From NCBI RefSeq assembly GCF_026210795.1, contig NC_089437.1, positions 2,604,001-2,668,000 on the forward strand: a stretch of DNA of 64,000 nucleotides, in the 5' to 3' direction. The position numbers and the translations under genes were made by a program. This document shows positions 15,703-47,889 of the stretch, piece after piece. Positions within the stretch are counted from its first letter, which is position 1; each line of letters starts with the position of its first letter. The DNA comes from Rhizophagus irregularis (lineage: Eukaryota > Glomeromycota > Glomeromycetes > Glomerales > Glomeraceae). Under the pieces are notes generated by a model. That model was not told the origin of the DNA. It did not search any database and saw only the letters and a list, made by a program, of their open reading frames with translations.

Positions 15703-18470
15703 TTTTGGATGAAATTATATAATGCACAAAAAGACAGTATAATATTACAAATACTTTATGAATCAGGATTTTTTCAGCAAAATCCATGTTATCAAAAAGA
15801 TCAATCTCTTACATTTTGGCAAGTATTTCATAATGCATTGGAAAATTAAATAAAGGTCCAAATGGTCAAAGACGAATTCTTTCAATTATTGCTACAAAAT
15901 TTACCTATCAAGAACTCAGATCAAAATTAAGGTTTAATGTACTGTTAGTGACTTAGTGTATACTAATATTACAATATATATTATTAAAAATAATTGAATT
16001 AATAAAAAATATATAATTTTACAAGTAGCTGCAAATACAGTATCAAGAGCTCACCAATACACAGGTCAAAAAGTGAAAAATCAGGCAATCAATCACCAAT
16101 CAGGTAGTTAATTGGTAATTGATTGGTGACCGATTGATATCTGATTGGCATTTTCGCAAAATAAAACAATAAATACTAATCAGGCAGTTTGCTAACTTTT
16201 GATCCAATGATCGGAAAAGGATGAAATATAGTTCATTGGAATTGTCTCAATAAGACGAATCTAATGGTAGTAAAATCACATTTTTAGAATTAATACTTGA
16301 TGAAAAAATTAAGTAAAATATAAAAATAAAAATATATTATTTATATTTTATTTAATTTTTTATTAACTAATAACTATTAATTCTAGAAATATGATTTTAT
16401 TACCATTAGATTCATCTTATTGAGACGATTCTAATGAGATATATTTCATCCTTTTCTGATTACTGGATTAAAAGTTAGCAAACTGCCCGATTGCGATGTT
16501 TATTTATGTTTTAAAATACCAATTAGTTACCAATCGGTAACACATCAGCTACCTGATTGGTAACCGATTGGTAATTAATTGATGCCTGATTTTTTACTTT
16601 TTGACCTGTGATATGTGCATATTAATAGACTAGGTACACCTCAAGTACAAAAACCTATTGTTACCAAAGACAAATTAGAATGAAAAAGAAAAGAATATTT
16701 AGAACAATTATTTTTTGATAAAGCTAATGTAATAATGAATTCATATAAAACAGATATCATTATATAAGAACCAGTTTATTACCTTAAAAATATGAAATAA
16801 GAACTGTAAGAAAAGTTTCATGAAAAATATCCAAATGGTGTAAAATGAACAACTTTTTATAAACATTTGCAGGGTAATAAATATATTTATCATGAGAATC
16901 TTGGTGGTTTGTGTTCAATATATAACACATATATGGCTATAAAATTATTGAAATATTTAATGAACTTATCAAATTCATTTAAAATCATATTAGTAATCTT
17001 CATCATATTCAGATAATATTTCCTATAATTAATAAAAAATATATAATATTTATATAAATATTAATTTCTAATAATTTTTTTTAGAATCAATTATTAGATT
17101 AAGGAGAAAAGTTAAAATAATATTTGAAAAGAGAATATAAGTTACATTTAACTGTAAACTCTGATGGTACAACAACATATAATCAATGTATAAACCATTA
17201 CCTTCTTTTTGCCTTTAGTATATGAATAATGAACATCATCTTAACATATTCGATTATGATGTTCTTTTTTGATTCTTAAATACATTGATATTAAAAAAAT
17301 ACTTCAAACAATATTCACAAGAAAATTTATGAATTGTAAGATCAAATTTTCTATTATTTGAGTCATTAGACATGAAAGTTATTTCTAAATTCTCAATTTA
17401 ACGCAAATCTATTAAATCTAGATGAAAAAGAAGCTGTAATAATAGTTGATTATAAGATAAAAATCTTACTTAAAAGTACAAAAGAAACAAAAAGTGCTTT
17501 TTTGAAAAAAAAAGGTGGGATTTACATTCAATTCTTGTCTATATATGAAAATCTGAGAGTCAATTGGATATTCAATATTTGATTATTAGTTAGCTGATAC
17601 TTGTTAAAATGTATGGTTTACAGCTTTCTCGTTACATGCAGTTATTGAATTACTTGAAGTTAAACCAGATTGGGTTACTTTTCTTTCTGATAATGGTCCA
17701 TATTATCACAATGTGGACCTAATGCCAATTTTAGGACATTAAAGTAAATAGTATAATATTATGGTAAAAAAATGGATTTTTTTAGAAGCTGAAGAAGCCA
17801 AAACTTCAATTGATTTTCACTATACCTAAGTGTATATTAGTTATTTAAATAATTTAGAATTCACCATTATTATTTATTGAATTATTAACCCAATAAAATG
17901 AATAAATAGTTTTTGTATATATTTATACCAAATGGGTTTATCCATATATAATTGGCTCTAGATTGGCTTAGATTTGGATTATTTTTTGCATAAATTTGAG
18001 CTAATTTCAAGTCAATGAGCCCGTTTGATATAAATTTATATAAAAACTATTTACTGGGTAGTTACAGATTTCACATGTGATAAATTATTATGTTTGATTA
18101 GAGTTTAATATCAATGAAGGTGTGGATATAGAAAATGTTATTCAAGAGATTTGTGATACTTCAGTAATATATTTGGAACCAAAATGAAAAAGAGGTTTAT
18201 ATGAGAATACAATTTGAAGTTATGTAATATTATTAAAAACAACTACTATTATTTGTAGAATCAGAATGAAAAAAAAAATTCAATACCAGGAAATTCCAAT
18301 TGGTATGAGTGATTCTGACCAACAAAAGGTAAATATGTAGGATTTATTTAGGATCGTGCAATGCCAAATATTGAAATGTGGAAAAATTTTAAGCCAGTTA
18401 AAATAGCACAATTTGAAAAAAAAACCTCTTAAAAACCTAATTTGCAAGTTTCAAATCATTCAATTTTAAC
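15703..18470 (+). pseudogene. Decayed DDE-type transposase gene, interrupted by a MITE
   Basis: Ordered protein fragments are scattered over three frames: ILQILYESGFFQQNPCYQ and SIIATKFTYQELRSKL (15.72-15.93 kb); YIYHENLGGLCSIYNTY (about 16.88 kb); YLKREYKLHLTVNSDGTT (about 17.13 kb); VTFLSDNGPYYHN (about 17.67 kb); FLEAEEAKTSIDFHY (about 17.79 kb); then VIQEICDTSVIYLEPKWKR-like sequence (about 18.15 kb). The SDNGPYYHN block looks like the second-aspartate motif of a DDE domain. Such multicopy genes are common in mycorrhizal-fungus genomes, but my family placement is from memory and unverified. The gene is dead: many stops (largely TGA), frameshifts, and a 551-bp MITE at 16060-16610. Confidence 0.5.
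16060..16610. mobile_element. 551-bp foldback MITE with near-perfect long inverted repeats
   Basis: The left end CACAGGTCAAAAAGTG and the right end, ending TTTTTGACCTGTG, pair and continue inward through repeated ATTGGTAACCGATTGG-like words, GTTTGCTAACTTTTG and a GTCT..GAGAC palindromic module. ATA flanks both sides (16057-16059 and 16611-16613), so a 2-3 bp duplication is likely. There is no coding capacity. It interrupts the transposase pseudogene, so it is younger than that gene's insertion. Confidence 0.7.
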
Positions 18471-18570
18471 TTTTAATTAGAATATGCCACTATCTCATAA
18501 ATCAAGTATGTAATAAATTGATCTAAAATTGAATTTTTTTGCAATTTTTTTAAACAATTTTTTTATTATA

Positions 18571-20508
18571 CAGTCGACCCCCTATATAGTCTCCCTCTGT
18601 ATAATCACATCATATAAAATTTCCCTTTATAAGCACACCATATTTTGGCCAACATAGCAGGCTTTCCGATTTTTGAATAATCATATGATGATCAGCATAT
18701 GTATTATTTTTAGTTTTTTATTTAATAAATTATCTGTTATGGCGCGCCATAATAAATAACTAAAATTCACATTTTCTAGTAATTTTTAAATGACGTAATA
18801 CTGACATAATTGTTTGTATATAGATATATATTTTATTGGCTGAATATCATATGTATCGCATATGTGATAGCTGTACTAATTTATTTTAATTGTGCCACAA
18901 AAAATTTAATAGCGAAGGACAATAAAAAAATTGATTCTTCAGGGTTTGTTTAAACATATTACAAAGGAATCTGGCTATTGGAGGTGGAATCCAGAAGTTA
19001 TAAACACTTGAAACTTTCTTATAAAACGAAAATAAATATAGTACATTTATATTATTTGGCTTTACAAAGAATTTTTGGCAAAAAATAGTTGGAATCAAAT
19101 AAAGATATATTTTGACACTCCAGGTTCTTCTTAAGTATAAGTTATAAAGTTTTAAATAAGTTTAGTGTTAAAAAAATTCTTTATTGATAGAACTCCTTAC
19201 CATTTAAAGGATCAGATAGGATTTTTAGAATTTTTTTTCCTTTATTAATAAACTAATTATTTCTTTCTCTTTTTTAGAAGTTGACTTATGAATTTCATCA
19301 GTATATTCTATTAAAAGCTTAAACAACATCCTTTAAATAAAGTGAAAGGAGTTTTATGGCTACAATTATTGGTAATTTAAATTTTGTGTCAGGTTTTGAT
19401 TGTAATGACATTATCGTTAATTTATCAACATACACATATACTAAATGAATAATTTTATATTCCTTTGAAAGGTGTAAATGGGCTCTAATTTTGAAATCAA
19501 AAATCATGCAAATTAAATCATTAGATAAGGAAATATTTATGTTCAAATGCAAGAGTTTATGTCAAATTGATAGTAAATGTATTGAGCGTATTTATTAAGG
19601 AACTAATGATTCAATCAATGTGATTTTTAACTTTTTGGATAGATCTCATTCTCTCCTTTCAAATAAATATAAATTCATTTTTCTAGTATGCATATATGTT
19701 GAGTTATTTATGATTTTGCAACAGGAAATCAGGAATTATAATGGATTTTTAATTTATATGGAAGGTACATATTAAAATTCTTGAATTTATTTCAGATTCT
19801 AACAAAATTTTTTTGCAAATATATTTTATTAATATTTATTAGTTTGCAAGATTTAAAGTATGATTATTATATGAGTTTTTAAATCTGCCAGTCATTTATA
19901 TTAAAAAATTACGTAAAATGCATTAAATTAAAAGTTACTATTTGTAAAAATTGGTCAATAATAATTCAATTTGAATAAAACTTTGTATGATTAAAATTTA
20001 AACAACTGTAGAAATGCGATTTTACTACCATTCGATCCGTCTTGATGAGCTGATTCCAATGAGCTATAGATCGTCTTGATTGGATCAGTAGATAGCGAAA
20101 TATTCTTAAATTACTATAATTATTCAAATTTAAGAGCGTAAACTTTTGTAATATTACGTTTTTAGTGTAATATTTCGAAATTTTACACCACCTTCGAAAT
20201 ATTACACTAAATTACGCCTAAACAAATTTCCTGATGAAGTGCAATAAATTTATTTGCAATATTTGAGGTCATATTAATATGTAGAATTTTATGCAATGTC
20301 TTGTAACGGTATTTTATATTATGTGATAAAATTGGAAAATGATTGGCAAATTAACGTGATAAATGAGAAAGCCTGCTATACTATTTTGGCCCAATGTACT
20401 AATAAATATATTAGAAAAACCTCCTCTATAGTCACAGCATATGACTTTTTTTATAATCACACCCTTTTTTTCGGCCTCGAGGGGTGTGACTATAAAGGGG
20501 GTCGACTG
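18571..20508. mobile_element. Pogo/Tigger-like DNA transposon, non-autonomous (CAGTCGAC ends, TA duplication)
   Basis: The left end is CAGTCGACCCCCTATATAGT. The right end read inward is CAGTCGACCCCCTTTATAGT followed by CACACC. Both are flanked by TA. CAGTCGA ends with a TA target are typical of pogo/Tigger elements. The 1938-bp interior has no transposase frame. It contains one copy of the GTCT..GAGC palindromic module (about 20020-20080) and a perfect hairpin built on TTTAGTGTAATATTTCGAA (about 20160-20215). It sits inside an apparent intron of the flanking decayed gene. Confidence 0.75.
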
Positions 20509-20514
20509 TATTAG

Positions 20515-20661
20515 AAATTAATACAAATCATCTCACTATTGAAAAATTGAAGAAACAATTGAAGGAATATGGTGTTGACACAGATATAAGCAATAATAGA
20601 GTCGTATTAGTAGAAATTTTACAAAATAAATTGAACGATGAAATATTACAACAAAATATGG
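20515..20661 (+). pseudogene. SAP-like exon, probable 3' exon of the decayed transposase gene
   Basis: The 147-nt open segment starts after a TTAG acceptor and ends at a GTAAGT donor. It reads LTIEKLKKQLKEYGV followed by DISNNRVVLVEILQNKL, a pattern like a SAP DNA-binding helix-loop-helix. If the pogo-like element is removed, the intron from a GTATGT donor near 18508 to this acceptor joins the upstream relic in frame (HKS-KINTNHL). The SAP call is by pattern only. Confidence 0.45.
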
Positions 20662-22318
20662 GTAAGTTATTTCTTATCATAAAATTGTGATGACAAGTGT
20701 CACTTATCATTTACAAATATGTAGCCATTATAACGAATTGCTTCTCATATTTTCTGCAGCAAATGTATCTTTTTATTAAAACTTCCAGTATCAGTAGTAC
20801 TACATATACTTGTGATGGATCTGCTAATCGAATTCAGAAATGATATTTTATTGTAGAATTAATCTAACCAAAAATACTATAAGTATAGGGATTAAGTGGT
20901 AATTTATCAATAAATTAGAAGAATTTGTGATTTTTTCCAGAAACTTATTATTAACAAAATAAAATCAAAACTATAATTTATCATCATTTTTTGATGGTTT
21001 AAAAGAGATAAAAAGAATTTGTATTATAAAGAAAGCATTTAGATTCATAAATATATCCAATCCTTTTTACTTTATTTGCAGATTACTGCTTGATAATTTT
21101 TGCAACTAGTACTAATCAATTTATATTTTTATAGGCAATATGGAATCAGATTTTTGTGATGCAATTATTGCTTAATATTGATCGTTTTTTAATTATTAGA
21201 GATAAGTTTCTAAAAATTACAAATTAATAATTTTTATATATAATGAAATGATGTATTGTATAGGTGAAAACTTAACTATTTTACAATATGGATTTTAAGT
21301 ATCAGTCCTCAATTCTTATTTTGCATCTGTAAGAACTGAACTTTACAAATATTTTGAAGTTAAAAGTGTTTAATTTAATTTATGTATAATAAATATTTAA
21401 TACTAATGATTTATATTAAATTTTTGTTAGTAATAACTAATGGTATAAATTAGTGAATTTAATTATCTCTAAAATTTTTGATCAATTAATTGATTATTTT
21501 ATGATGAGTATGATCGATTAAAATTAATTAATTATATTTGATCGATCAATTTAATCAATCAAAATAGTAATCATCCTATATTTATATTTAAATTTTACAT
21601 ATTATTTAAATTATATTATTTTATATTATTTAAACAGAAAAAAAAGTAGTTCACTTACAGCTTCTGGTAAAAAATTTTAATATTAATAGTATCTGCCTAT
21701 ATACTGAAATTAGAATTTTTAAAAATCATTTAAATAGAAATTATCATATAGTTATTGATTGATTGATTGATTAATCAATCATCGATTATAATTAATATAA
21801 TTAAATTTTCTAATATAGATATGTCTGATAAAATTACTTTTCAGAATTGTTATCTGAATTATGCAAAAATCTCTCTATCATCAAGTAATGATATATTGCA
21901 AGTTAAATCTCTCATACATGTACTTTTAACTTTGAGAAATATTATGATTGTGAATAAAAGTCTACTAATGCAAGCATTAAAATAAGCCACCTCTCATTTG
22001 TTTCAAAATATTAATACAAGTCTTACCGTAAAAATGTAGTTGAATCATTTAGTAAAGATAAAAGTAATGTTAAAGGTCAGATATATCAAAATTGTAAGGA
22101 ATATGAATCACAATTCAAGAACATGTATTAAACTATATGGAAATTGTAGTAATTTAAGTCATAGAATTAATTCATCAATATAAAAATTAAATTTAATATG
22201 CCATTTACTAGTTAATAAAGAGTATTTTATTATTTTTATATTTTATGGTTATAAATAATTATTTATTACTATAATTTATTTGATGAAATAATTAAAAATC
22301 ACTATATACAGTAGTAAT
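20662..22318. other. AT-rich tract, probable decayed transposon sequence
   Basis: No intact gene. Short AT-rich inverted words occur (GATTGATTGATTGATT near 21755; ATCGATCAATT words near 21480-21560). The tract probably contains the remaining 3' part of the broken gene, but I could not follow its frame. Confidence 0.4.
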
Positions 22319-23523
22319 TAAAGCTCCTAATAGTTCGGGCTAAACCGGGGAACTGATCTGAAACTGGTTCAAAATTCGGTTCAGTTCGGTTCAAGTATTA
22401 GAACCAAAAAACCGGCGGTTCGGTTCAGTTTAATCTGATTTTTTATAAAAATGCGAAAATCAAATAGACGCCCATCTAGTGATCGTACAAAGTCAGGCCA
22501 TATATTATTGGATTCATCTTGACGAGACGCGTCGAATGGTGATAAGATCATGTCTCTAGCATCGATAGATCACACGTTAACCCACGCTAAATGATTTATC
22601 AATAATTGGAATTATCAAGCTATCTATCGATGCTAGAGACATGATATTAGCGTCATTCGACGCGTCTCAGTGAGACGAATCCAATGAATATAAATTCATC
22701 TGTGTACGACCACTAGATGGCGAATAATGTCAAGTTTCGCATTTTTTTAAAATTTTCGAGCATTAAAAATTAAAAATTCTGATACATGAATTTATTCGTC
22801 ATCCAATGGTCGTACAAATATGAAGTAGGACTCATTGGATTCGTCTCGATGAGACGAGTCGAATGGTGGTAAGATCACGTCTCTAGCATCAATAGATAGC
22901 TTGCTAATGCCAATTTTTTATAAATCATTTAGTGTGAATTGTGAATTAACTTACGATCTATTGATGCTAGAGACATGATCTCACCACCATTCGACTCGTC
23001 TCATCGAGACGAATCCAATGAGTCCCAATTCATATTTGTACGACCATTGGACGACGAATAAATTCATGTATCGGAATTTTTAATTTTTAACGCTCGAAAA
23101 TTTTAAAAAAATGCGAAACTTGACATTATTCGCCATCCAGTGGTCGTACACGGACGAATTTATATTCATTGGATTTGTCTCACTGAGACGCGTTAAATGA
23201 CGCTAAGATCATGTCTCTAGCATCGATAGATAGCTTAATAATTCCAATTATTTATAAATCATTTAGCGTCGGTTAACGTGTGATCTATCGATGCTAGAGA
23301 CATGATCTTACCACCATTCGACGCGTCTCGTCGAGACGAATCCAATGATATATGGCTCGACTTTGTACGATCACTAGATGGACGGCTATTCAATTTTTCG
23401 CATTTTTATAAAAATCGGATTAAACCGAACCGAACCGCCGGTTTTTCGGTTCGGTTCTTACGGATTTCGGCTCTAATCCGAACCGTCTATAATCCGGACC
23501 AAACCGACCCGTTCGGAGCTTTA
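22319..23523. mobile_element. hAT-like foldback element: a 1.2-kb palindrome made of three nested palindromes
   Basis: Ends TAAAGCTCCTAATAGTTCGG and (reverse of the right end) TAAAGCTCCGAACGGGTCGG are flanked by the perfect 8-bp repeat GTAGTAAT (22311-22318 and 23524-23531). An 8-bp duplication with a TARNG start is the hAT signature. The subterminal parts hold iterated CGGTTCGGTT words. Inside are three units (22507-22686, 22832-23020, 23167-23347), each a palindrome. The two connectors between them are reverse complements of each other, so the whole element is one palindrome centred near 22921. No transposase is encoded. Confidence 0.8.
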
Positions 23524-23965
23524 GTAGTAATAAATAGCAAAACCATAAAAATAATTATAAAATTTATTTTTATATATACTTTCTGATTTTTTTATATAAA
23601 ATAAAGGTTACTTAAAATTTAGAATTAGAGTTAAAAAATTAAGATTAGGGTTTAGAATTAGATGTTCAAAAAAATTAAAATTTTATTTATTAAAACATAT
23701 AAGTTTAAAAGAGGGCAAATAAATAGTGTTTATATAAAATATAAAATTTCAAAAAATTTTTTTTTTTAATTTTTCTTACTGAACTTGCCATATTCAGTAA
23801 TTTCAACCATATTTAAAATTAAATTAATTTACAGACAATATATTAATTTTTTTTTTTATAATTTTCAAATACATAAATAATAAATTAAGTTTATTTAATA
23901 TAATTTTTTATTTTCTTAATTAAAAATAAAATAAATAGTATAAAAAAATTCTCTCTTTTATAGAT
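23524..23965. other. AT-rich intergenic tract 3' of RIC8
   Basis: Includes the right-hand hAT duplication and long A/T runs. It presumably includes the 3' UTR of the minus-strand RIC8 gene. No gene is seen. Confidence 0.45.
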
Positions 23966-26235: not shown

Positions 26236-26383
26236 ATCACTTCCTTTTTTGCCAAACGGAATAAAAGTTGCGTGACGTCTTTCGTGGACTAATTTTTATA
26301 TCAGACAGAGCTGTAGATCATGATCGATTGTGTCACAAATAATTTGAACACTTTTAGGTTACATTGAAGAAAAAATCTGAAAA
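26236..26383. promoter_or_regulatory. Short shared divergent promoter of RIC8 and the F-box/LRR gene
   Basis: Only 148 bp separate the two ATG codons, so both promoters and 5' UTRs must lie in this spacer or extend into the genes. No canonical TATA position can be assigned in this AT-rich background. Confidence 0.5.
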
Positions 26384-27924: not shown

Positions 27925-27960
27925 TAAGATAAATTTTACCGACAAATTAGTAAAAAAAAT

Positions 27961-28874
27961 TCATTGATTATATCCATGAATTGATTTTGCTAAACTCTCT
28001 GCATCGGGTTTTGGGGATGTAATATTTACATTTATTTTTTTAATTTTTTCTAAATGATTGCTTGTAGTTTTACCTATACTAGCAATCTTAATATCATTTT
28101 CTTCAAATAATTTATTTTTTAATAGTTCTAATGAAATGTCAACTCCCGATGGACTAAAAAAAACTACCCAATCAATTTTCTTCTCGTAATTTAATAATTT
28201 ATCTAATTCATTAGGAAATAATGAATTTGGTCTGGTCTCATAAATTAATAATTCTTTTAAAATAAATCCTGATTCTACCAATTTATTTGGTAAATAATCT
28301 TTTCTTTTATCTCCTACAAGGAATAATAATTTTAATTGTTGAGAATTTTCTCTTTCTTGCGAAGAACAACTAAAATATTTTATTATGTAATCTGCCAATA
28401 TTTCTGAACTTCCTGATTCATCTCCAAACGGATTAACATTCAATTCTCTTATTGCTTTTGCTGTTGATTTACCAACAACAAAATATGGTAATTTCTTCCA
28501 TTTGTCTAAAACATCTTTTTTCTCATCTATAAAAATAATTAATCTATCTCAATTAATGGAGATTGATTACATTTAAACAGATCAGATGAAATTTCATTAT
28601 ATTTACCAGAAGAAAAGAATGATTGTTCCCATGCTATTTTAAGTCCTTCAACGGCTCTTTGACTAGTAGTTATTACCCCTCTATATTTATTGTCTGCTTC
28701 ATTCTTTAATATATTAGTTAATTCATTTATATTAACCAAAGAGTGTTCGAGAAGCGGTAAATAAAGTATTTTATAATTTCCTAGTTCACGGAATTTTTGT
28801 TCATAAATATCTACGTTTGAATCAGCTTGTATTTGTTTTTCCTTTAAAAGCAATATTGTTTTTGAACGTGACAT
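27961..28874 (-). CDS. HEM4: Uroporphyrinogen-III synthase
   Basis: This enzyme cyclises hydroxymethylbilane with inversion of ring D to give uroporphyrinogen III, the fourth step of heme synthesis, in the cytosol. Two exons (28874-28571, 28526-27961) join in frame to 289 residues, a normal length. Recognisable family blocks are YRGVITTSQRAVEGLKIAWE, PYFVVGKSTAKAIRE, LLFLVGDKRKDYLPNKL, ELLIYETRP, WVVFFSPSGVD and IASIGKTTSNHLEK, ending with the SPKPDAESLAKSI motif. The single intron is only 44 bp (28527-28570); without it the frame hits a stop. The chosen start MSRSKTILLL fits the usual N-terminal strand. An open upstream extension exists but adds no conserved sequence. The stop is 36 bp from that of the convergent F-box gene. 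Confidence 0.88.
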
Positions 28875-35594: not shown

Positions 35595-35628
35595 GATCAC
35601 ATAATTCCTGTTAGAATTAATTGTCATA

Positions 35629-35909
35629 TCACTGGTAAAAAAATGGTCTATCCTACACATATCCTACACATATCTTACATATATCGGGTACTCAAAATGT
35701 AGAAAATCATACACAAATAATACACATATCATATACATATCAGGTACTTATATATATAGTATACCTATCAGGTACCTGATATATGTATGATATATATATT
35801 AGTACCCGATATGTGTATGATATGTGTATTATTTGTGTATGATTTTCTACATTTTGAGTACCCAATATGTGTAAGATATGTGTAGAATAAATCATTTTTT
35901 TACCAGTGA
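35629..35909. mobile_element. 281-bp palindromic MITE with TA duplication
   Basis: Both ends read inward as TCACTGGTAAAAAAATG and pair over most of the element through repeated ATATGTGTA/TACACATAT words and GGTACTCAAAATGTAGAAAA. It is flanked by TA. The pattern is that of a Tc1/mariner-derived MITE. It lies only 34 bp from the hAT-like MITE ending at 35594. Confidence 0.75.
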
Positions 35910-36448
35910 TATTTTAATATACTGTATAATATTTATTTTAAAATTTCAAATAGTTTATTTTTTATAATAATTTTTTACATAATTTTTTACTTTTATTTGA
36001 TATCATGCAATATTATATCTAAAAAAATAAATTATATATCAAAATATTCATCTTATTAAGATAAATCTAACAAGTTAAAGATCAATTATTAAATCCAAAA
36101 ATAGAGGTTAAAATCTATATATAATTTTATATATTTAAAACAAATTAAATATAAGATTTATACAAATTTAGATCTGAATTTTTAGTAATTTTTAGAGTTT
36201 TAGTATACTTTGAAATAGAAACATGTAAGTATCATTAAAGAGTGATTGTGATAATCATATAGAATATAGATACATCAAATCCAGTTAGTAATAATTAGGG
36301 ATGCCAATGGTTGATTTAGTTTGGTTTCAGTTTTAAAACTGTGATTTTTAGTTAAAACTAAATCAACCACAAAATGACTAATAAAACTGAATTGCAAAAC
36401 TGATCGCAAAATTACTGCTGCAAAATTAAATGAACTAATATTAGAAAG

Positions 36449-36535
36449 TACAGTCAACTCTCTTTATAGTCACACATTTGGGACAGTTCATATTTGGTGA
36501 TTATAAAAAGATGTGACTATATAAAAAATTTCTTA
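36449..36535. mobile_element. Half-element: CAGTCAAC end resembling the pogo-like TIR
   Basis: After a TA comes CAGTCAACTCTCTTTATAGT and CACAC, close to the ends of the element at 18571-20508. A matching partner may be the GTGACTATA repeats near 47430-47525, but these lack the final GTTGACTGTA, so the far end is lost or mutated. Confidence 0.4.
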
Positions 36536-36629
36536 TATTAGTATATCATAATTCCGGGCAAAAATTAACATAATTTTAGCTAAAATTATACTCAAAACTT
36601 TATTGTATCGTAACTTCGCCAATATTAAT

Positions 36630-37020
36630 TATATAGAGATGATTTTACCGCCATTCGATTCGTCTTAATGAGATGGTTCTAATGGTATAAAATACATCGA
36701 AATCCAATCACTAGATTAATTTCCAAAATTAAAAAAATATTAATGGATTTTGTGTAATAACTCTGCCAATATTGATCCTAGAGAGATGTTCTTACTACCA
36801 TTCGATTCGTCTTGATGCGACGAATCTAATGGTATAAAATACATCGAAATCAAATCACTAGATCAATTTCTAAAATTAAAAAATATTAAATTGTTTTTAA
36901 GCAATAACTCCGTCAATATTGATTACAGAGAGATGAGCTTACCACCATTTGATTCGTCTTGATGAGGCGATTCCAACGAGCTATTAATCATCTTTTTACA
37001 GTCATTAGGTACTGAGAAAT
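36630..37020. repeat. Three tandem copies of a roughly 150-bp unit carrying the palindromic module
   Basis: Each unit contains TACCACCATTCGATTCGTCT, a GATGAGACGA-like partner, then AATGGTATAAAATACATCG and ATCACTAGATC. The cores are near 36650, 36793 and 36945. A fourth, more diverged core lies at about 47047-47110, on the other side of the LINE insertion, suggesting the array was split by that insertion. Confidence 0.7.
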
Positions 37021-37058
37021 TTAGCAAAATGTTAAATGGCGCAGTAAACGTAAATCAA

Positions 37059-37301
37059 CTTTCCCAGCGTAATCTGAAAAAAATGTCACAAAAAATCACG
37101 TGACTTTTTTTGTCACAACCGTCACACCCCACTGCGTTTCCATTTTCTATAAGTATCTGAGGGACTTAGTTTTTTTCAAGTAGGTAAAAACTTATCTGTC
37201 ACACCTTATTCGTCATAAGTGCATCACACTTAATTTCAGTCAAGTTGCGTAATGCCGGCCATTTTGTGACATTTTTTTTCAGGTTATGCTAGGGAAGTCA
37301 T
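37059..37301. mobile_element. 243-bp MITE with 9-bp duplication GTAAATCAA
   Basis: Imperfect inverted ends (CTTTCCCAGCGTAATCTG on the left, and a right end reading inward CTTCCCTAGCATAACCTG) are followed on both sides by a poly-A run and TGTCACAAAA. The flanks are the exact repeat GTAAATCAA (37050-37058 and 37302-37310). A 9-bp duplication would fit Mutator-like elements; 8 bp (hAT) cannot be excluded because the first base is uncertain. No coding sequence. Confidence 0.65.
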
Positions 37302-37514
37302 GTAAATCAAGAAATATAATAATACTGATGCTTAACATTTTGTTGAATTACTTATCAGCAAGTGATTGCAAAAGGATAAAACTAAAAACTACCCAACTCT
37401 CTCCCGTTCTGCTCATTTGACAATATTTATGAAAAAATAAAAAATTTTTTCAAAGTTTTTTATTACTTTTTCTTTATATTTTCTTTATTTTAGATAACTA
37501 CAACACTTTACAAA

Positions 37515-39516
37515 ATGACTAAAGATAAAAAGAAGAAAAATAACAAGTCTAACAATGATAATACTACTAAATGTCCTGCCTCTAGCTCTCCAACTGGCAA
37601 CGTTTCTGGTCAAGGTTTCTCTTTGTCTGGTCCTTCGAACACTCCACCTTTGACCAACTCTACTAATAAACGTACCAAAGTCAGTGCCGATGACTCTGTC
37701 ATGGATGTTGATAAACCTCTCATGCCTTCTAGCTCTATTGAAATAACTCCCACTGAGAAACCTTCTCAACCTGATACCTTCTCTTTTAACACCTCCCAGC
37801 ACGCACCCACTAATAGTAATAATAAAGGCAAAAGTCCTGATATTACTCCTGCAGTTTCTTTCCCTGAACGTGCTGCCTCCCCTAATGCTTCCAAAGCTGC
37901 GGTACAATCCCAACCTACTTTATACTACGCCTCAGCTGCTCCCAATGACATTGAAGACTTCTGGGAACACTTTACTTCAAACCACGACATGTGTGACGCA
38001 GTTGATTGACAACTTTCCTTGTTCCCCTCTTATGGTAGTTATGCCACGTGTAGTGGATCCAACGATCTCAAGAGGATCATCGTACATTTCTGTAAAAAGA
38101 AAGATCTTGACAAAGCCACAAATTCCCCTATGGATTCTTTGTTTGGCTTGCATTTTTATGTATATGACCTCAGACTATTAAGGCAGATGAACATGCACGT
38201 ACTCTAGTGGTTACTGACATTCCGCTCTTTATCACTGACACACTTTTGCGTATTACCTTCTCTCATTATAGCAATATTGTTCATTACCATCATACCTGTT
38301 TATCTAAACTTTACCGCACAGCATATATTACCTTTGAATCTACTGGTGCATTACAGAACCTCAACTCTTCCTGGAATATTTTTTGCCTATGCATTTGCCT
38401 TGCTATTTTCTCACCTGACCAGCATGCTGAAAGATGTGTTTATGTCGCTCTACTTGCCGGCCTTCCTCATAGCACTATTGTAGGCGATCTTGCTGAAATT
38501 GCCGATAAAGTCTCCGCTAAATTAATTAATGTTTTATTTTCAATGAACTTGTATAACCCTAAACCTTACGCCTATTGCCACTTTGTTTCTGAAACTGCTG
38601 TGGAAAATGTTAAGTCTATTTCATACGCTCTCAAGAATGTAGGCTTAACCTGGCATTTTCCAGATGAAGTCACTTCCCTCTGTCATCGATGTGGTTGTCC
38701 AAATTGTAACCCTGATCGATGTAGTTCTTCATCTCACCTCAACCATCCTGCTTGTCTATGGCAATCTAATGATAAATTGCATGTATTATACAACAAACAT
38801 TTACCTCCTTCACACCCAGCCAAGCGTTATAATTGTTTTGCTCACCCTGATAATAACAATGATGGCCAATCACGTGGTAATGCGTCTCACCATCATTTCA
38901 GTTCACGACCTAATAATCGACAACCATCTCGTTTCCGCTATCAACGTCGTCTGTGGAATCGTAACAATCTCATTTACAACAATCAACATCATCCTATTCC
39001 AGATGTCAATAAACTTAATCATTATGCCAATGGCATGGATGTTATATATCCTTGCCCTCCTACTGTGCTGACTGATTGGAAATCTATTGGTGCTGCCCTT
39101 GAAAAAGTAGTTAAAGAATTAGCTCTTCTTACCACCCAATTTTCTTCTATAAACAGCCGCCTTTCCAAATTGAAATCTGATATGGCTGCTCGTACTCCTA
39201 TCTCAGAATCTTTTGTTACCAAACTGCCTTCCTATATCCCTTCCTCTATGCAAGGATGGGATGACTCAGTTAACACTAACAACAACATTCTTGTTGATAT
39301 TAATTCTCCTCCTTTACAATTGACATGTGGTTTCACTCCAATCCCTCAATTTGCTTTCATTCTGCCTTCCAACGTTGCTCCTCTCTTCCCAATTGATATG
39401 GAACAATGACTCTCCTCTTTTTCTGATACTGTTGCTTCTTTGGCAGGATCAATCCATAAAAGAATCGAACAAAATAACCTCATCTTAGCTCGCCAAAATG
39501 GCCAAGCTAATCATTA
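37515..39516 (+). pseudogene. LINE ORF1 (gag-like), frameshifted
   Basis: It begins MTKDKKKKNNKSNNDN, a basic, low-complexity N-terminus rich in S, T and P. After frameshifts around 38010 and 38200 the reading continues at 38207-39409 with a Cys/His cluster (CHRCGCPNCNPDRC, then SSSSHLNHPACLW) that could be a zinc-binding nucleic-acid domain. A TGA at 39407 separates a final in-frame segment ending GQANH. It would form the RNA-binding ribonucleoprotein of the element. As preserved it cannot make the full protein. Confidence 0.7.
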
Positions 39517-40953
39517 ATCGTTCCTTTTCTTTTCCTCTTCTTCATCATTATTTTATCAGTATGCAACAATAATGGACAACAATAAACATAATTTTTCCCC
39601 CACTCCTCTTCTCTTATTAATTTTGGTCAACTTAATGTTAATGGTTTATTTTTCCCTGTGCGACAACAACATTTATTAAATTTTTTCCTCCATTCTTCTT
39701 TTGGTGTCTTATTTTTAAATGATACCCGTCTCACTTCTTCTAATGTTAAATTTACTTTTAATAATGAACATTTCCAATATAACTTCCGATCCTATTGGGC
39801 CTATCCTTCTTCTTCTCGCCTTCATGATGGAGTTGGTATTTTGCTCCATAATTTTCTTCATAAACATGTTCAGATGATTGATTCTTGGAATGGTCGTTTT
39901 TTAAAATTAGATCTTTTTTTTCATCAAACAAAAATTTCAATTATCTCTTTATATTACCCTCCTTCTGATTCTATCCATCAAACTATTTGTAATGACCTTA
40001 TTGCCAAACTTTTTTCTTGGCTCGATTATGCCCATTCTAATAACTACCATGTGGTTATCCTTAGCGATTTTAATATTGATGTAGTTGCCCATTCCACTCA
40101 CTTTAGACTTCTCCGTTTGCTCTCTTCTAGGTTCTTTACAGATCATCAGGCCATTCTTTTTCAACATCTGGCCCTGAACTCACTTTTTATCATGTTAATG
40201 GTTCTTTCAGATTGGATTATATCTGGTCTTCGCCTAGATTTCCAGCCCTAGTCTTTTTTTCGCAGTAGTTGATTATCCTGCCTGCTTTGCTTACTTTTAT
40301 CTGCATCGTAAGTTTTGGTTACGGTCTTTAATTTTAGCTCATGTATAGCTATTTTAGCCAAATCCCGCCTCAAACAGAAGAAAGAATTGTGCACTATTAT
40401 TGCTTATTCCTCCACTTCAAAAGAACAGTGGAATAATTTTACTGAACAAGTGGATGATTCTTTTGGCATCTATTTGGACAAACATTATAATTCACGTGTT
40501 GATTTTTCCTTCTTTTCTTTAGATCGTATGTGGCATGCTTTGAAAGCTGCCATTTTCAGTACTGCAATTGACACATTACCCTTTCATAAGGTTTCTAATG
40601 CCCACCGTCATTCATATTTCCCAGAACCATTAAAGCTTATCGCTGTTAACAAATTTTTGGATCATTTTTTATACCGTCTTACTACTTATCGTTCTAATCG
40701 GCCTACCCAAATTTCCCAAATGATAGCCGCATTACCTTCTTATTTTGCGATTCTTACATCCTTACTTCCTGATTATTCAGTTCCGGTCTATTCTACAATG
40801 CCTTTATCTGGATTTAAATACTTTTTACGTTCACAGAAGAATTTAGTCTCTGCTTTTTTGAGTACTAAATTCATGCAACACCTTACGGACTCTGTGAAAT
40901 ACTACACAGTACTACGCGATGAACATTTTTCGAACTCTTTAGGAACCTTTATT

Positions 40954-41706
40954 TAGAGCTCCGAACAGGTCAGCCAAATTCAGGTAACCTGACCTGACAT
41001 GACCTGAAATTCAGGTCAGGTATGAGATTTTTGAAAAAAATTCAGGTCAGGTATGAAGATTGACCTAACCTGATTGACCTGTTGACCTGAAACTATTGAT
41101 TCTACTATATAATAAAAGTGGTTGCAGTATTGCGATTCACTTTTTTATCTTGATTTTATATAATAAAAGTGAGTTGCGATATTGTGATTCACTTTTTTAT
41201 ATTAATTTTATATAATAAAAGTGAATTGCAATATTGCGATTCACTTTTTTATATTGATTTTATATAATAAAAGTGAGTTGCGATATTGCGATTCACTTTT
41301 TTATATTAATTCTATATAAAAAAAGTGAATTGCAGTATTGGGATTCACTTTTTTATATGATTTTAATATAAAAATGTTGAATCGCAATATTTCAAGAAAA
41401 AAATGTTGCGAAAACGTTTTTTTCATAATATTATATTAAAAAAATGTTTCGTAACATTTTTTTTTTTGATATTTCAATAATAACGTTGCAAAAACGTTTT
41501 TTTTCATAATATTATATTAAAAAAAAAAAGTTTTGTACCATTTTTTTTCAATACTTTAATAAAAATAGTCCTGAAATTTTTCAGGTTTCAGGTCAGGTCA
41601 GGTCAAACAGACAACCTGATATAACCTGACCTGACCTGACCTGAAAAAAAATTTCAGGTCAGGTTTATCAATTAACCTGACCTGACCTGACCCATTCGGA
41701 ACTCTA
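40954..41706. mobile_element. hAT-like MITE in LINE ORF2, with 52-bp tandem hairpin repeats
   Basis: The ends TAGAGCTCCGAACAGGTCAG (left) and, inward from the right, TAGAGTTCCGAATGGGTCAG are flanked by the exact 8-bp repeat CCTTTATT (40946-40953 and 41707-41714). CAGGT/ACCTG pentamers are iterated on both subterminal sides. Inside are about five tandem 52-bp units (about 41104-41365), each self-complementary (AAAAGTGAATTGCAATATTG pairing with its own second half). Removing the element and one duplication restores the ORF2 frame (LGTFIDSALSV). Confidence 0.85.
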
Positions 41707-42143
41707 CCTTTATTGACTCAGCATTATCAGTTGAAAAATGTTCGATCATTCTTGACCGTGTTTCAGTTGTTCTTGACTCCAAACCCACTTCTTAACGGAC
41801 CCTTCAGATATCAAACAAGCTGCTGTCGCTCATTTTCAATCTATTGTCTCTCCTCCATTGGTCCAATATTCTTCTACTACTTCATTCCCTTCATAATGGC
41901 AAAATGCTTACACTCCTCTCCAGCTCTCCCTAATGTTTCAGCTTCATTATACGACACAGTCTTGGCACCTATTATTCTTCAAGAATGGTCTGGCGTTATC
42001 TCTTTCATGCTGAACAACAAAGCTTCTGGCCTGTCAAAAATCTTCTACGAAATGTTAAAACATTTATCCAGTGATGCTTTAAATTTCTCTCTTCTACTTG
42101 CCAACAAATGTCTTTCTCGTGGTGATATCCCTGCTGACTGGTG

Positions 42144-42466
42144 TAGAGATGCGATCCAGATGAAATTTTACAATCCGTGATCTGCACAGATCAATCCGGA
42201 TTATCATAGGATTAAATCTGGATAATCTGGATTAACTTCAATTTTTGGATATCTCAGCATCTAACGATCGTATAGAAATGCACTATAGCTCATTCAAATT
42301 GTTGCATTGAGACGATTCGAATGAGCTATAGTAATCTCTGTATAATCATTGGATGCTCTTTCGGATTAAAACGAATATCCTTAATTCATCCAGATGCATC
42401 ATTATCCGTTCAGATCGGATGGATTGGCGGATGATCCAAATTTTCAGATTTCAGATCACATCTCTA
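42144..42466. mobile_element. hAT-like MITE in the LINE RT region, with the palindromic module
   Basis: The ends TAGAGATGCGATC and, inward from the right, TAGAGATGTGATC are flanked by GACTGGTG and GACTGGCG, an 8-bp duplication with one mismatch (42136-42143, 42467-42474). Subterminal GGATTAAATCTGGATAA-type words occur. The centre carries GCTCATTCAAATTGTTGCAT and its inverted partner GACGATTCGAATGAGC. The TAGRGATG start is shared with the large element at 36296-47889. Confidence 0.8.
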
Positions 42467-44850
42467 GACTGGCGGAAGCCGTAGTTTATCCTATTTCCAA
42501 ACTTCATAATTTTGATGCTCAACTTAAGAACACATGTCTTATTACTCTTTTAGAAACTGTTCGTAAATACATGGTCAAGGTTGTTACTAATCGTCTTTTC
42601 AATATCCTTGCTGATAATCATGTTCTTCAAGGAGGTAATTTTGCTGGTTGCCTAGTGGTTCTACTGATGTCCCTATCAAAATGCTTGATGCGATTATCCA
42701 TCAACAAAAACATAATTCTCCGATGATCAGGTAACTTTCGATCGTTTCTGCGATATTTCTAAAGCTTTCGATTCTATGGATTTGAATATGCTTAAATTAG
42801 CTTTAGATAGACTTCATTTATCTGCACTTTTAGTGCAATTTATTCTGAACCTTTTTACTTGGCAGAATAATAAGATCCTTACTTGTCATGGTGATACTGC
42901 TTTTTATCGAGTACGTGTTAGTATCGATCAAGGAGAAATCATTTTCCCTCTACTTTGGGTTATTTATTTGGATCCCCTGCTCACTGTTTTGAACAACGAA
43001 ATACGAGACCCTTTTGTTTTGAAATCCTCAGCTCTGTTAGACTATTCTCCACTTGAATTTGAACAACATTCTTTGCCGATTTCCTATTTGACTTTTATGG
43101 ATGACTCTACACTTGTTGCTTCCTTGAAGTCTGAAATTAAAGATCATCTTTCTATTACTACTGAATTTTGTACATTAAATAATATTCAAGCAAATTCAGC
43201 AAAATATGTCCTTCTTTCTTCTTCTCATCCTTCTTCTTTGATTACTTTTGATCTTTCACCTTCTCCTTTGATCTCCAATACTTCTTTCTCTTTTCCCTTT
43301 TTGGCTCTTGGTACTTCTTTTCGCTTTTTAGGTGTTTGGTTTTCTTTGTCTGCCTCTTTCCAATTCATACTTAAATAAGCACGCTGCATGGTTAAAAATA
43401 TGGCTGCTTTTCTTGGTCCAAAGAAACTACTCGCACAGTATGTGGCCTATCTCTATAATGCTATTCTTCTTCTGAGATTGGAATTCTGTCTACAAACTAC
43501 TCTCTTTTCAAAAAGCACTGTTCAATCAATAGTTAACCTGATATTTTCTGTTCACAGACGAAAAGTTGGTTTTGCTGCTACTACTCCTTTAGCTTTGCTT
43601 TTCTTAAAACTTCCTTTCTCAATTCAGCATGCCTTTTATCAGTTTCTCTTCTCTCATATTGCATCTTGGCAAAAAATATTTACCCACCCTGATTTTAAAG
43701 GCTTTGCCAATTACGCTATCTCCTATCTTCAAAGCTATTTGAATGCTGAAAATTGCCCGACTGCTATCAACCTGGAACTATGGTCACAAGTCGTTTCTCT
43801 TCGGACTCACACCTTGTTTAATTCAATTTTATTTTCTTCACAAATTAATATCACGTGGTCTCTCTCCTTCTGACCTCTAAGGCGTGATCTACAACCTGCT
43901 CTGCTATTGCGAACCATTTTACCACTGTCTATTTTTCAGAAAAGTTGGAAACTTTGGAAAATTTTGCACATTTTTGTTCTTGCTCAACTAGCTTCACCTT
44001 GTAGCCGTTTCCTTATGAATTGGTTTGATTTTCAGCATCTTTGTATTGTCAGAAAAAAAGGACGAATTCCTACTTGGTTTAATTATATTAAAAATAATTT
44101 TCTTTTTTCTTCTTTATCTTCTTTATTTTTATCTTCGTATAATATTAATCCTTCTTTTACTTTAGCTTCACCTTGTTTATTAGATGATTCTACTAAAGAT
44201 TATAGTTTTTACCCTCAATAGGCTATTAATTTTAATTCCGCTATCCATACTTTATCCGTTGGCCGTGTGTGTATCACTTACAGGAAAAAAGACTCTGCTA
44301 TAATGTCTCATTAGCTCCCTGTATCCACCTCCGCCGATGAACGATCCTATAATCCTTATCCTGGTTGCTCTTATAACATTTTGGCCTTATCCAAGAAATC
44401 TGCGATTAAATAACGTTATAATAGCGAGAAATGTTTCTTCCTGGTCTCTCTTTCTGAAACTACTGGTTATCCTACTAAGAATGCCAAAGTATTTGCAGCC
44501 TACCTCCCCATAACTCTGTCTACCTCTTGGAGTTATACTATTTCCTTGGCTCTTACCCATTTGAATAATCCACCTTCTACATCATCCACTGGTTTGCATT
44601 GCCCGGTTTTGACGATTGATGATGTTAATATTCCTTCTTTGTTTTCTTCTACACAAACACTATATATTGATGGCTCGTTCCACTGAGAAATAGATTCTTC
44701 TCCTCCTTCTATGGCCTCCGCTTGGTTAGCCTTAGACAATGATGGATTTATATTGAATTGTCGTCTTGAGCATTGGCTTAAATTTCCTTTCAGCTTTATG
44801 ATCAGAAATTTATGCCATTATTTTTGAATTACATGCTCTTTCTCCTGGTT

Positions 44851-45128
44851 AGTATTTGGAATCGAATATATTCGAATATATTCAAGTATTCATTTAAATT
44901 TATAAAGTATATTCGAATAATATTCGAATAAGTTAAATTTCCTTTTATAGTAATGATTTACATAATTTTTAGCCTGAATTATGATTTTAACTCAGTTAAA
45001 TTTAAGGATAATGCCCAATTAGAATTTTAACTATACTATATCTGAATACTCGAATAACCACTATGTTTATTCGAATACTCGAATATCTTTCGAGTTATTT
45101 GAATAACTGTTACGTGATTCCAAACGCT
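44851..45128. mobile_element. 278-bp MITE in the LINE RNase H region, with TATTCGAATA palindromes
   Basis: The ends AGTATTTGGAATC and, inward from the right, AGCGTTTGGAATC are flanked by TCTCCTGGTT on both sides (44841-44850 and 45129-45138). The duplication reads as 10 bp, but 8 bp (CTCCTGGT) with hAT-like ends is also possible if the ends are shifted. Both halves are rich in TATTCGAATA words. No coding sequence. Confidence 0.7.
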
Positions 45129-46590
45129 TCTCCTGGTTCATGATAACGATTAATACAAATTGTGCTGAATTGATCGCTCTCCCAGAAGTGTTTTGTTGAT
45201 GCTTCTTTCTCTTTGAAGTTACTTTGACAACCTAACCATCTTTTTTGGCTCTTTATTAGATATTTTCTTTTGGACCTCAATTTGAGTATTGATTTGGTCA
45301 AAGTCCCTGCTCACAGTGATGATGCGTTAAACATACAAGTGGATTCTTTAGCCAAAGTCACATATTCTTCTCCTCAGCCTACCTTCTCACCTTTGGCTTT
45401 TTGTCAAGTGCCATGTGTATTGACCTTCAATTCCCTGCCTATTGATAAGAATATTCGCCATTTTCTATGATCTATAGCCAATGCTCGCAATTTTTATTTT
45501 TCTGTTTATTGGCACATTTCACTGCGTTAGGTCCTCCTATACTTTTCGATTGGGCTGGAATTCATTTCTGTCTTTCCTGTATCAAAGGTTTTGCCTCACA
45601 TAAGAACGAACGTCCAGAATTTTGGATTTTCTGTATCAAACTTCTTTTAGACATGTTGCCTACCTTGGCCATACTACAACAACACAAACCTTACCTTTAT
45701 TCTTCTGACTGGCTCTACCCACAATGCAATTCTGCTCCTGAAGATTTGAATCATCTTTGGACTTGTCCTTATATTCTTCCTGATCTTAATCCGTATTTAA
45801 CACACCGTAATGAAATTATAAAGTTCTGGAATAGCTGTTTTACTACCTTTTCAGCTTTAAAGATTCTGCCTATCTCATTCCAAGATGATTTCTCTGCACT
45901 GAATTGTTGGCAATTTGAAACTCCTTCATCCTCCTATTTGTGGCTCATAAGAGGATTGCTCCCTGCTCACCTAACATCATTTTTGAAGAATTATTTTCCC
46001 CTCTCTGTGGTATATAAGACTCTTTTTCCTCTTCTTAACGATTTCCAAGTCGAATTATATGGTGAAATTTGGCTGTGTCAAAATGTTTTTTTCCACGCCT
46101 GGGAAGAATCTCAAGGAATTTCTGCTTCCTCAAAGACCCGAGACCCTTCTACTGTTTCTTCCTCTGTTATTTCTCCTCATCATAACTGTTCTTTAGCGAC
46201 AGTTCCTCAGGATTCTTGGATTTCCTGGATATCCTCTTCTATAATTCGAGGTGGATTTTAGATCTCGCACTTGGATTTTTTGTGCCGCTTAACAGTTCAA
46301 CCTCTTAGGATTTCTTTCTGGTAACGGACTGGATTTTTGGATGTTGGATAGTTGACTCATACTGGCCTTTGGGTAAAGTTGGGGTATGCGATTCTGTAAT
46401 AGTTTAGTTTTTCTTTTTTTAATTATATTTTAGGTTAGATTTCTTTACTTGTATGAGTCGTGAAACTACTTTTTTTATTTTTTATTTGTTTATTTTTTTA
46501 TTTTATATATTGTTTGATATTATTTTCAATTTAAAAAATTTAATAAAAGATAAAGTCATAAGACTGTTTACACAGTAAAAGGATAAAACT

Positions 46591-47034
46591 TGGCTCTTCT
46601 ATCGTTTACCTTTCTAATATTTCACCTCATCATTACAACTCTTCTTTGGCGTCAGTTTTTCAGGATTCCTGGATTTCTTGGATATTATTTTCTATAATTC
46701 AGGGTGGATCTTAGATCTCGCACTTGGATTTTCTGTGCCGCTTAACAGTTCAACCTTTTAGGGTCTCTTTCTGGTAACGGACTGGATTTTTGGATGTTGG
46801 ATAGTTGAACCACATTGGCCTTTGGGTAAAATTGGGGTATGCGATTCTATAATAGTTTAGTTTTTCTTTCTTTAATTTTTATTTTAGTTTAGATTTTTTT
46901 ACTTGTATGAGTCGTGAAGCTATTCTTTTTATTTTTTATTAGTTTATTTTTTTATTTTGTAATATTGTTCGATTTTAAAATTTTTGAAGTTAAAATATAA
47001 ATAAAAGATAAAATTGTAGACTGTTTCGCTGCTG
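46591..47034 (+). mobile_element. Second, 5'-truncated LINE copy in tandem (3' end only)
   Basis: About 440 bp nearly identical to the last part of the preceding LINE, including TTAGATCTCGCACTTGGATT, GCCGCTTAACAGTTCAACC, GGTAACGGACTGGATTTTTG and the ATAAAAGATAAA tail. It is followed by AAAAGGATAAAA (47035-47046), the same word that flanks the first copy. It diverges at scattered sites, so it is a separate insertion or an old duplication. Confidence 0.75.
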
Positions 47035-47046
47035 AAAAGGATAAAA

Positions 47047-47889
47047 GCTACCACCATTTGATTTATCTTAGTGAGATAATTCTAACAAGCTATGATACAT
47101 CTTTGTATGATTATTAAATGCCAAGTTATTTAATATATTCTTTATATAACTGTGATTATAAGTGGTTCTTCTTAATACTAGGAAACGGAAACCGTTGTAA
47201 GTCCGAAGCGAAAAAAATAAACCTTTATCTTGTTAGTTGTTTATCTGATGTATCACAAATTTATTTCATCTGATGTAACACGAAATTTCAATGACGTGAT
47301 GCGTGCGGACAACCGGAAATCGTCACGTGACACTAATTGTCATCGACGTTCGTAAATTATATAGTCCTTCGCTACGCTCCGGACAATAAGATTTTTGAGG
47401 ATAGGTATAATAGTGCCTATAAATAGATTGTGACTATATGAGATAGTTTTTAATAATAAAGTGTTTTGAACATTCAACTGGTGTGACTATATAGTAGAAT
47501 GTGACTATAACAGGAGTGACTATAGAGGAAATTTTATTTGATAATATTTCTTAAAGTTATAATTTTTTTTATGATAATAATGTCAATTTCGTAATTTTTT
47601 TCAGCAGAATGAAAAATCACATGATCAACATATAAAAGATAAATTTTCTTATTATTTCAAAATAAGAATACTATATATATATATAAACACCAAAATCATA
47701 ATTTTTAATAGTATTCTTATAAAAGAAACATTTTTTTCTTTTGAAATATATGATTAACTGATCAGTTTTTTTGTCAGTTTTTTATATATAAAATTGGCAA
47801 TTAATCAATTAGTCTTAGACTAAAACTGAATTGTAACTGAACTGAAAAACTAGTTATAATTGGTTATAACTGAACTTTTAGCATCTCTA
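47047..47889. other. Right flank of the nest: palindromic module and CAGTC-type half-site
   Basis: It contains a diverged palindromic module (47047-47110), a region with GTCCGAAGCG/CGCTCCGGAC inverted words (about 47192-47392) that may be one more short element, iterated GTGACTATA words (47430-47525), and the right end of the hAT-like element. No gene is seen. Confidence 0.45.

Follow-up and report, generated by a model that had tools for sequence, protein, structure and literature searches.

The Cg_HINE/pearl elements of bivalves are non-autonomous and carry satellite-like repeats in short arrays between their flanks, and, in the parts of the reports that describe these arrays, DTC84 has a conserved palindrome near the repeat junction (PMC7492417, PMC5139131). 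The V domain, as described in the relevant passages, is carried by short interspersed nuclear elements (SINEs) and by one lineage of miniature inverted-repeat transposable elements (MITEs), and is present in the MITE MER6 (PMC6887750). Tetris and Galileo have a foldback form and internal tandem repeats of varying number, and the Galileo repeats are said to bear additional transposase binding sites (PMC4079207). For Rhizophagus irregularis, with a genome of about 147 Mb in which about two-thirds of the elements are unclassified, the passages of the repeat surveys that concern MITEs do not describe a shared internal module (PMC11075540, PMC8647823). Here, we describe a palindromic module from a 64,000-nt stretch of the R. 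irregularis genome (contig NC_089437.1, positions 2,604,001 to 2,668,000), which is called the window. Alignments and profile searches show that copies of this module are homologous between at least ten non-autonomous element families, which differ in their ends and target duplications.

The arrangement is similar to each of these systems in part. It is like Cg_HINE/pearl in having repeat arrays between flanks; unlike Cg_HINE, where the passages concerned assign all carriers to one superfamily, Helentron, the carriers here are of hAT-like, Tc1/pogo-like, and 3-bp types, and the whole repeat unit is a two-armed palindrome. The V domain and the highly conserved domains of SINEs are likewise short domains common to otherwise unrelated elements, once in a MITE of Tc1/mariner type (PMC6887750), whereas the present domain is palindromic, arrayed, and spread over many DNA-element families of one genome. 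The foldback form and variable tandem repeats recall Tetris/Galileo, where the repeats are described as those of one element or its derivatives (PMC4079207), in contrast to the one repeat that serves many end types here. The hosts resemble the published R. irregularis MITEs, as far as the surveys' passages on these go, in being short non-autonomous elements with inverted ends (PMC11075540, PMC8647823).

Homology of the module across element families

The window contains 14 copies of the module, each about 120 bp long. The half-palindrome GATGAGACGAATCCAATG was matched 11 times in the window with up to three mismatches (expectation 0.04), and CCATTCGATTCGTCT 20 times (expectation 1.0). The 14 copies could be aligned over about 100 bp around the center, the sole gap being one base at the center of the copy at 42307. 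They belong to five host families (Fb, Fj, Fd, F1, and Fg), in agreement with the claim of the sequence-only reading that at least five elements have one module in common. The scope of the module is larger than that reading had noted, at about 120 bp rather than 90 to 100 and in at least ten families genome-wide.

The genome containing the window comprises 146.7 Mb in 32 contigs. In it, the core of the palindrome was found at 3303 places with up to three mismatches, and the reversed pattern at none. A degenerate form of the core, searched with zero mismatches, gave 1163 matches per strand, many sites being counted on both strands, and none for the control. For closer comparison, 61 loci, selected for variety rather than at random and largely through the core, were fetched by pattern or similarity, a further 27 around transposase domains, and 18 by a pattern from the arms. 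A family-balanced comparison used the first 50 loci together with the window and comprised 171 copies of at least 40 bits. Three loci with unclear ends (L050, L037, and L038) were omitted from the core-masked profiles, the end-region comparison, and the constraint and arm tests but retained in the cross-family identity profile, the module tree, and the pairing test.

Cross-family identity in the family-balanced comparison clearly exceeded the control over positions −60 to +58 or thereabouts from the center and reached a maximum of 0.87 per six columns, compared to 0.22 to 0.33 in controls. The length is roughly constant at 118 to 121 bp, and the module is composed of two arms that are diverged inverted copies of each other; in an Fh example, the unit ends read AATAACTCGCCATC...GATGGCGAGTTATT. 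The middle bases are variable (identity 0.32 to 0.54 at −2 to +1), with the best-kept half-sites on either side. Since the copies were gathered mainly via the core, its conservation is partly ascertained, and tests are also reported without it. The outer B arm, for example at 22710 to 22722 in the window, reads CCACTAGATGGCG and resembles the core of the animal CTCF motif. Fungi are not known to have CTCF, so the likeness is probably a coincidence.

The possibility that only the short GTCT/GAGAC palindrome is shared is refuted by the arms, which match in register. In arm columns 19 to 60 from the center, mean between-family identity was 0.55 versus 0.27 in shifted registers (ten families), and in every one of the 45 host-family pairs the arms scored above each of the 30 shifts. 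Profiles built with one family left out detected all ten reference loci (E of 3e-20 or better, assuming, as for all these profiles, a search space set to 0.29 Mb). With the 37-bp core masked, the best E values ranged from 8e-5 to 0.03, with a match below 1e-3 in five of the ten loci, and reversed controls gave no hits. An arm-only pattern matched the genome 293 times forward and 317 times in reverse (control 0). Whole modules were present in all 18 regions picked from the 100 arm-pattern matches listed, with up to seven modules per region, commonly 181 to 182 bp apart, and arms without cores were found in none of these 18.

Host elements, ends, and target duplications

Among the at least ten host families, six have 8-bp target duplications, three are consistent with TA, and one has 3 bp; one more probably has 8 bp. 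On the basis of their 8-bp duplications, Fc (ends AGGACCCCGAAGAATA), Fd and Fh (TAAAGCTC), Ff (TAARGATGGTCATCGG), Fg (TAGAGATG), and Fi (TAGTGCTTCGACC) are read as hAT-like, with putative mobilization by hAT; hAT dimerization domains are abundant, with 836 candidates of which 150 were scored, but none could be assigned to an autonomous element sharing the ends of these hosts. The TA-type, Tc1/pogo-like hosts are F1 (CAGTCAACTC), Fa (CAGTCGCGTC), and Fj (CATCAGGAAATTTG). Family Fb (CACAGGTC) showed 3-bp duplications in L005, L006, L017, and the window element, and the further family Fk (TAAAGTTSCCTGCCRAAA) an apparent 8-bp duplication with seven of eight positions matching.

Perfect 8-bp duplications were present in L008, L009, L018, L019, L023, L027, L028, L030, L034, and L048, of which L027, L028, L030, and L034 have one flank in common and are not independent cases. 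The duplication matched at seven of eight positions in L046 and L049 and mismatched in L044; 8-bp duplications were also read in L010, L011, L016, and L003 (CTGAACTA). The other Fd and Fg loci gave no clean duplication with the automatic end finder, which is loose and returned wrong ends for many Fb, Fd, and Fg rows, so that Fb and Fd ends were read from the sequence instead. F1 has TA/TA at L041, three other F1 loci being missed by the end finder, and five of eight Fj loci have TA on both sides (L052, L053, L054, L056, and L058). Inverted repeats make up most of the element, giving a foldback form, in Fd (about 1050 of 1200 bp), Fh (400 bp), and the window Fb and Fd elements; Fj is also foldback by reading, and F1 is without this form. 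The carriers are not SINE-type elements (RNA polymerase III retroposons), since their ends are inverted and their duplications are of 8 bp, TA, or 3 bp.

Elements carry one to seven modules, mostly spaced 137 to 188 bp apart. The ten reference elements hold two to six, with center-to-center distances of 137 to 188 bp except for a 452-bp gap in F1 that contains an insert. The arrays seen had at most seven modules and were mostly of mixed orientation, no search having been aimed at long satellite-type arrays.

These ends bear directly on whether all hosts descend from a single ancestor that already bore the module and whose ends have since been replaced or have diverged past recognition. Such descent would fit the TAAAGCTC ends common to Fd and Fh, the array interiors of Fg and Fi, which are about 76% identical over 655 bp and accompanied by a weak end match, and the clustering of modules mostly by family. 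However, different transposases are indicated both by the three duplication classes (3 bp, TA, and 8 bp) and by the regions from end to outer module. These regions measure 62 to 477 bp in the reference element of each family, and the stretches that can be aligned between families are no longer than 19 to 31 bp (Fg/Fi 31 bp, Fc/Ff 31 and 22 bp, Fh/Fd 25 bp, and F1/Ff 19 bp). Within a single element, by contrast, the left end can be aligned with the right in nine of the ten reference elements, Fg being the exception at that threshold. In line with the earlier statement, the hosts have different target duplications and ends that look unrelated, aligning across families in short pieces alone. We consider common descent unlikely as the overall explanation; decay of all hosts from one ancestor is unlikely for the ends, and shared ancestry is possible for Fd with Fh and for Fg with Fi. 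If different transposases are involved, replacement of both ends would itself be a form of module transfer.

The elements and modules of the window are as follows, the modules being placed by the alignment of copies.

16060 to 16610: foldback MITE of family Fb, ends CACAGGTC, 3-bp duplication ATA (16057 to 16059 and 16611 to 16613), two inverted modules
16190 to 16310, minus strand: module in Fb, center 16250
16360 to 16480, plus strand: module in Fb, center 16420
18570 to 20509: pogo-like element, ends ACAGTCGACCCCC, containing a nested MITE fragment and itself no module host
20010 to 20236, plus strand: truncated MITE of family Fj, right end CATCAGGAAATTTGTTTAGGCG, inverted; one module centered at 20045, left arm cut at about 20010
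22319 to 23523: hAT-like non-autonomous element of family Fd, ends TAAAGCTC, six modules
22462 to 22582, minus strand: module in Fd, center 22522
22610 to 22730, plus strand: module in Fd, center 22670
22789 to 22909, minus strand: module in Fd, center 22849
22944 to 23064, plus strand: module in Fd, center 23004
23123 to 23243, minus strand: module in Fd, center 23183
23271 to 23391, plus strand: module in Fd, center 23331
36450 to 47528: pogo-like non-autonomous element of family F1, end CAGTCAACTCTCTTTATAGTC, TA, right end worn; split by the insert at 37382 to 47034; four modules
36608 to 36728, plus strand: module in F1, center 36668
36755 to 36875, plus strand: module in F1, center 36815
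36902 to 37022, plus strand: module in F1, center 36962
47035 to 47131, plus strand: module in F1, center 47071, left arm cut by the insert bearing a long interspersed nuclear element (LINE)
37382 to 47034, plus strand: LINE-bearing insert inside F1, 12-bp duplication AAAAGGATAAAA (37370 to 37381 and 47035 to 47046)
40954 to 41706: hAT-like non-autonomous element without module, ends TAGAGCTCCGAACAGG close to Fd/Fh, duplication CCTTTATT (40946 to 40953 and 41707 to 41714)
42144 to 42466: hAT-like MITE of family Fg, ends TAGAGATG, duplication GACTGGTG/GACTGGCG (42136 to 42143 and 42467 to 42474), one module
42247 to 42367, plus strand: module in Fg, center 42307, both arms of B type

Several assignments of the earlier reading were revised by these comparisons. 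The copy near 20020 had been given to the pogo-like element and instead belongs to half of a 522-bp Fj MITE nested there: window positions 20108 to about 20238 match one arm of this abundant element, whose ends are CATCAGGAAATTTG. Because its arms are 99 to 100% identical in 30 of the 40 matches listed (461 first-look candidates, 40 scored), Fj looks recently active. The count of six in the palindrome at 22.5 to 23.3 kb was correct, but the units, which had been called half-units, are complete modules in alternating orientation. This Fd element is bounded by the 8-bp duplication GTAGTAAT (22311 to 22318 and 23524 to 23531) and has relatives at L010 to L012, L016, L018, and L019; relatives of the Fb element are at L005, L006, L007, L017, and L039. 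As had been noted, modules are present both in the 36.6-kb array and at 47.07 kb, but these are not separate hosts, since the single 1547-bp F1 element at L041 aligns to window positions 36449 to 37382 and 47034 to 47528. The hAT MITE borne by the LINE region was recovered as a module host, the Fg element.

The LINE-bearing insert encodes a reverse transcriptase domain (PF00078) in a reading frame at 42716 to 43378. Both this insert and an insert in L041 (about 675 to 945) lie at a AAAAGGATAAAA-like stretch in or beside an F1 module arm, perhaps a preferred target. A direct duplication of 264 bp (88%; 46173 to 46436 and 46626 to 46889) is present on the 3' side of the LINE region. The module-free element at 40954 to 41706, located within the same insert, has 52-bp tandem repeats inside, and L039 shares this 52-bp repeat at 1452 to 1594, about 370 bp past its last module. 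Finally, a strong inverted repeat lies at 35626 to 35912 in the window; its arms are 109 bp long (92%), it includes ATCCTACACATAT-like repeats, and it has no module match.

Constraint, possible exchange, and a proposed role of the module

To measure constraint, columns were ranked by conservation in other families only, and within-family pairs were taken from different loci. The ratio of changes in the variable third to those in the conserved third was 2.27 in pairs 70 to 85% identical (120 pairs), 2.16 at 80 to 92.5% (107 pairs), 1.63 at 92.5 to 98.5% (91 pairs), 1.42 at 95 to 99.2% (69 pairs; bootstrap 1.02 to 1.98), and 1.06 at 96.5 to 99.5% (49 pairs; bootstrap 0.67 to 1.69). Outside ±18 from the center, the ratios from old to recent were 1.74, 1.68, 1.27, 0.87, and 0.74. 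The conserved columns therefore look constrained in older lineages and neutral in recent copies, the pattern expected of useful sequence in propagating elements.

This pattern is relevant to a somewhat unlikely alternative, in which the module is a passive hitchhiker: a satellite-like palindromic repeat, carried from one set of ends to another through template switching or unequal exchange, that brings no benefit to the elements. Palindromes are plausible sites of breakage and template switching. Array number and orientation vary, and Fg elements hold one, three, or four recognized modules between the same ends. The arrangement also resembles the satellite-like central repeats of oyster Cg_HINE, each described, in the passages concerned, as a unique combination of flank and repeat (PMC7492417, PMC5139131). 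However, in old within-family pairs the conserved columns change at about half the rate of the variable ones, and in the most recent pairs at about the same rate. Passive movement would not be expected to give this result, except if copying as such depends on the conserved bases.

In another alternative, the hairpin itself matters, as a source of small RNA, a cruciform, or an RNA structure. Long inverted repeats are present, and small RNAs and RNAi genes are reported for R. irregularis in the literature passages on the subject. Palindrome pairing was 54% versus 21 to 30% in slid registers, but compensatory double changes were not in excess (206 versus 193.9, sd 10.9, when shuffled), so that sequence rather than pairing seems to be kept. 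Also against the hairpin, the Rfam hits were generic, as from any long hairpin. We regard this explanation as highly improbable.

Exchange between families was examined in a tree of 71 modules, on which the family labels need 16 changes (minimum 12, shuffled mean 53). The families split in the tree are F1, Fd, Fi, Fa, and Fc, together with the unclassified L038 and L050, and one F1 module lineage adjoins Fg/Fi (support 97/94). Approximately unbiased (AU) tests covered four of the split families, F1, Fi, Fa, and Fc. Module trees were set aside as proof of exchange, as the topology is suggestive and the AU tests were not significant. We infer module transfer between families from the unlike ends, not from the tree, and a supporting circumstance is the existence of Fd/Fh-like ends without a module in the window element at 40954 to 41706. 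Nested insertion into modules does happen, as a hAT element at 421 to 2190 of L059, with a 590-amino acid open frame (Dimer_Tnp_hAT, DUF659), ends TAGGGATGG, and duplication TCTATAGC, lies inside an Fj module.

Alternatively, the module could be a small mobile element in its own right, bounded by inverted ends (for example, AATATCTCGGCATC...GATGCCGAGATATT) and able to insert into other elements. Its inverted ends and roughly constant length would be in keeping with this, as would the lone copy at L037, which was placed in no family. But L037 is without clear ends of its own, modules in the loci read stand mostly in arrays inside other elements or within recognizable ends, and no border duplication was noticed in these loci, where module borders were read without a systematic test. 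Additionally, the 27 loci around transposase domains (15 hAT and 12 DDE_1; 90.7 kb) hold one weak partial module of 15 bits, a number not above that expected from the average density of core places in the genome. In this small sample, autonomous elements therefore do not regularly include the module. Self-mobility is quite improbable.

The explanation we favor, tentatively, is that the module may be a portable internal array of putative sequence-specific binding sites favored during the spread of elements. The module is a discrete internal domain of about 118 to 121 bp with two diverged inverted arms. It would be bound by a putative host factor or by a protein acting across superfamilies, and the bound module would raise the success of any non-autonomous element carrying it. 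It could reach new ends via nested insertion or via template switching during gap repair at the palindrome, after which it would multiply locally in direct and inverted orientation. In this role it would parallel the conserved domains at the center of SINEs, though in elements that move by cut and paste. Among the three readings offered earlier, a SINE-like conserved core and a captured binding site fit best because unlike ends share the module and older lineages show constraint, and a mobile unit is not supported.

Several observations weigh against a portable, favored binding-site array. The module tree groups mostly by host family, and a single origin was not rejected by the AU tests for F1 (p 0.072), Fi (0.159), Fa (0.402), or Fc (0.072). 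The hAT-like ends TAAAG, TAGAG, and TAGTG may be distantly related. TA is found on both sides in four of four Fa loci but within the inverted repeat GTAC, so that Fa is at most consistent with a TA duplication. The core-masked matches are weak and non-significant at genome scale. In the constraint test, pairs are tree-dependent and identity bins overlap; the removal of copies below 40 bits against a profile built from the window can favor conserved columns in old copies, and the loci were our own choice, largely through the core.

Novelty and significance

Other identities suggested by the letters of the module were rejected. All Rfam hits fell below cut-offs, on both strands and to many unrelated, mostly microRNA models, and hammerhead-like letters in the core had no such hit among them. 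For tRNA-like letters in the insert of L001, ARAGORN found no tRNA, and the matches of core letters in published text that were opened were primers. The exact core had no match in IMG/VR viral contigs or in bacterial and archaeal contigs; among eukaryotes, the search covered the window's own genome.

We found no report of one palindromic unit across several transposon superfamilies among the open-access papers listed, and this is not proof of absence. The module is set apart from the known parallels by the spread of one such unit over several superfamilies in one genome. It is possible, if doubtful, that a single cis-acting plug-in domain, selected at the level of the element, has been acquired by at least ten DNA-transposon families of several superfamilies in this genome, with a putative factor that helps regardless of the transposase.

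What leads otherwise unrelated mobile elements to retain a shared internal domain has been asked chiefly of SINEs. The present genome supplies thousands of copies and at least ten host families, and it allows natural comparisons between elements with the same ends and one, three, or four modules and elements with similar ends and none. How the module affects spread, silencing, or recombination can thus be tested directly. The module may also help to classify part of the large unclassified repeat fraction in such genomes. If true, the plug-in domain would be the DNA-transposon counterpart of the highly conserved domains of SINEs.

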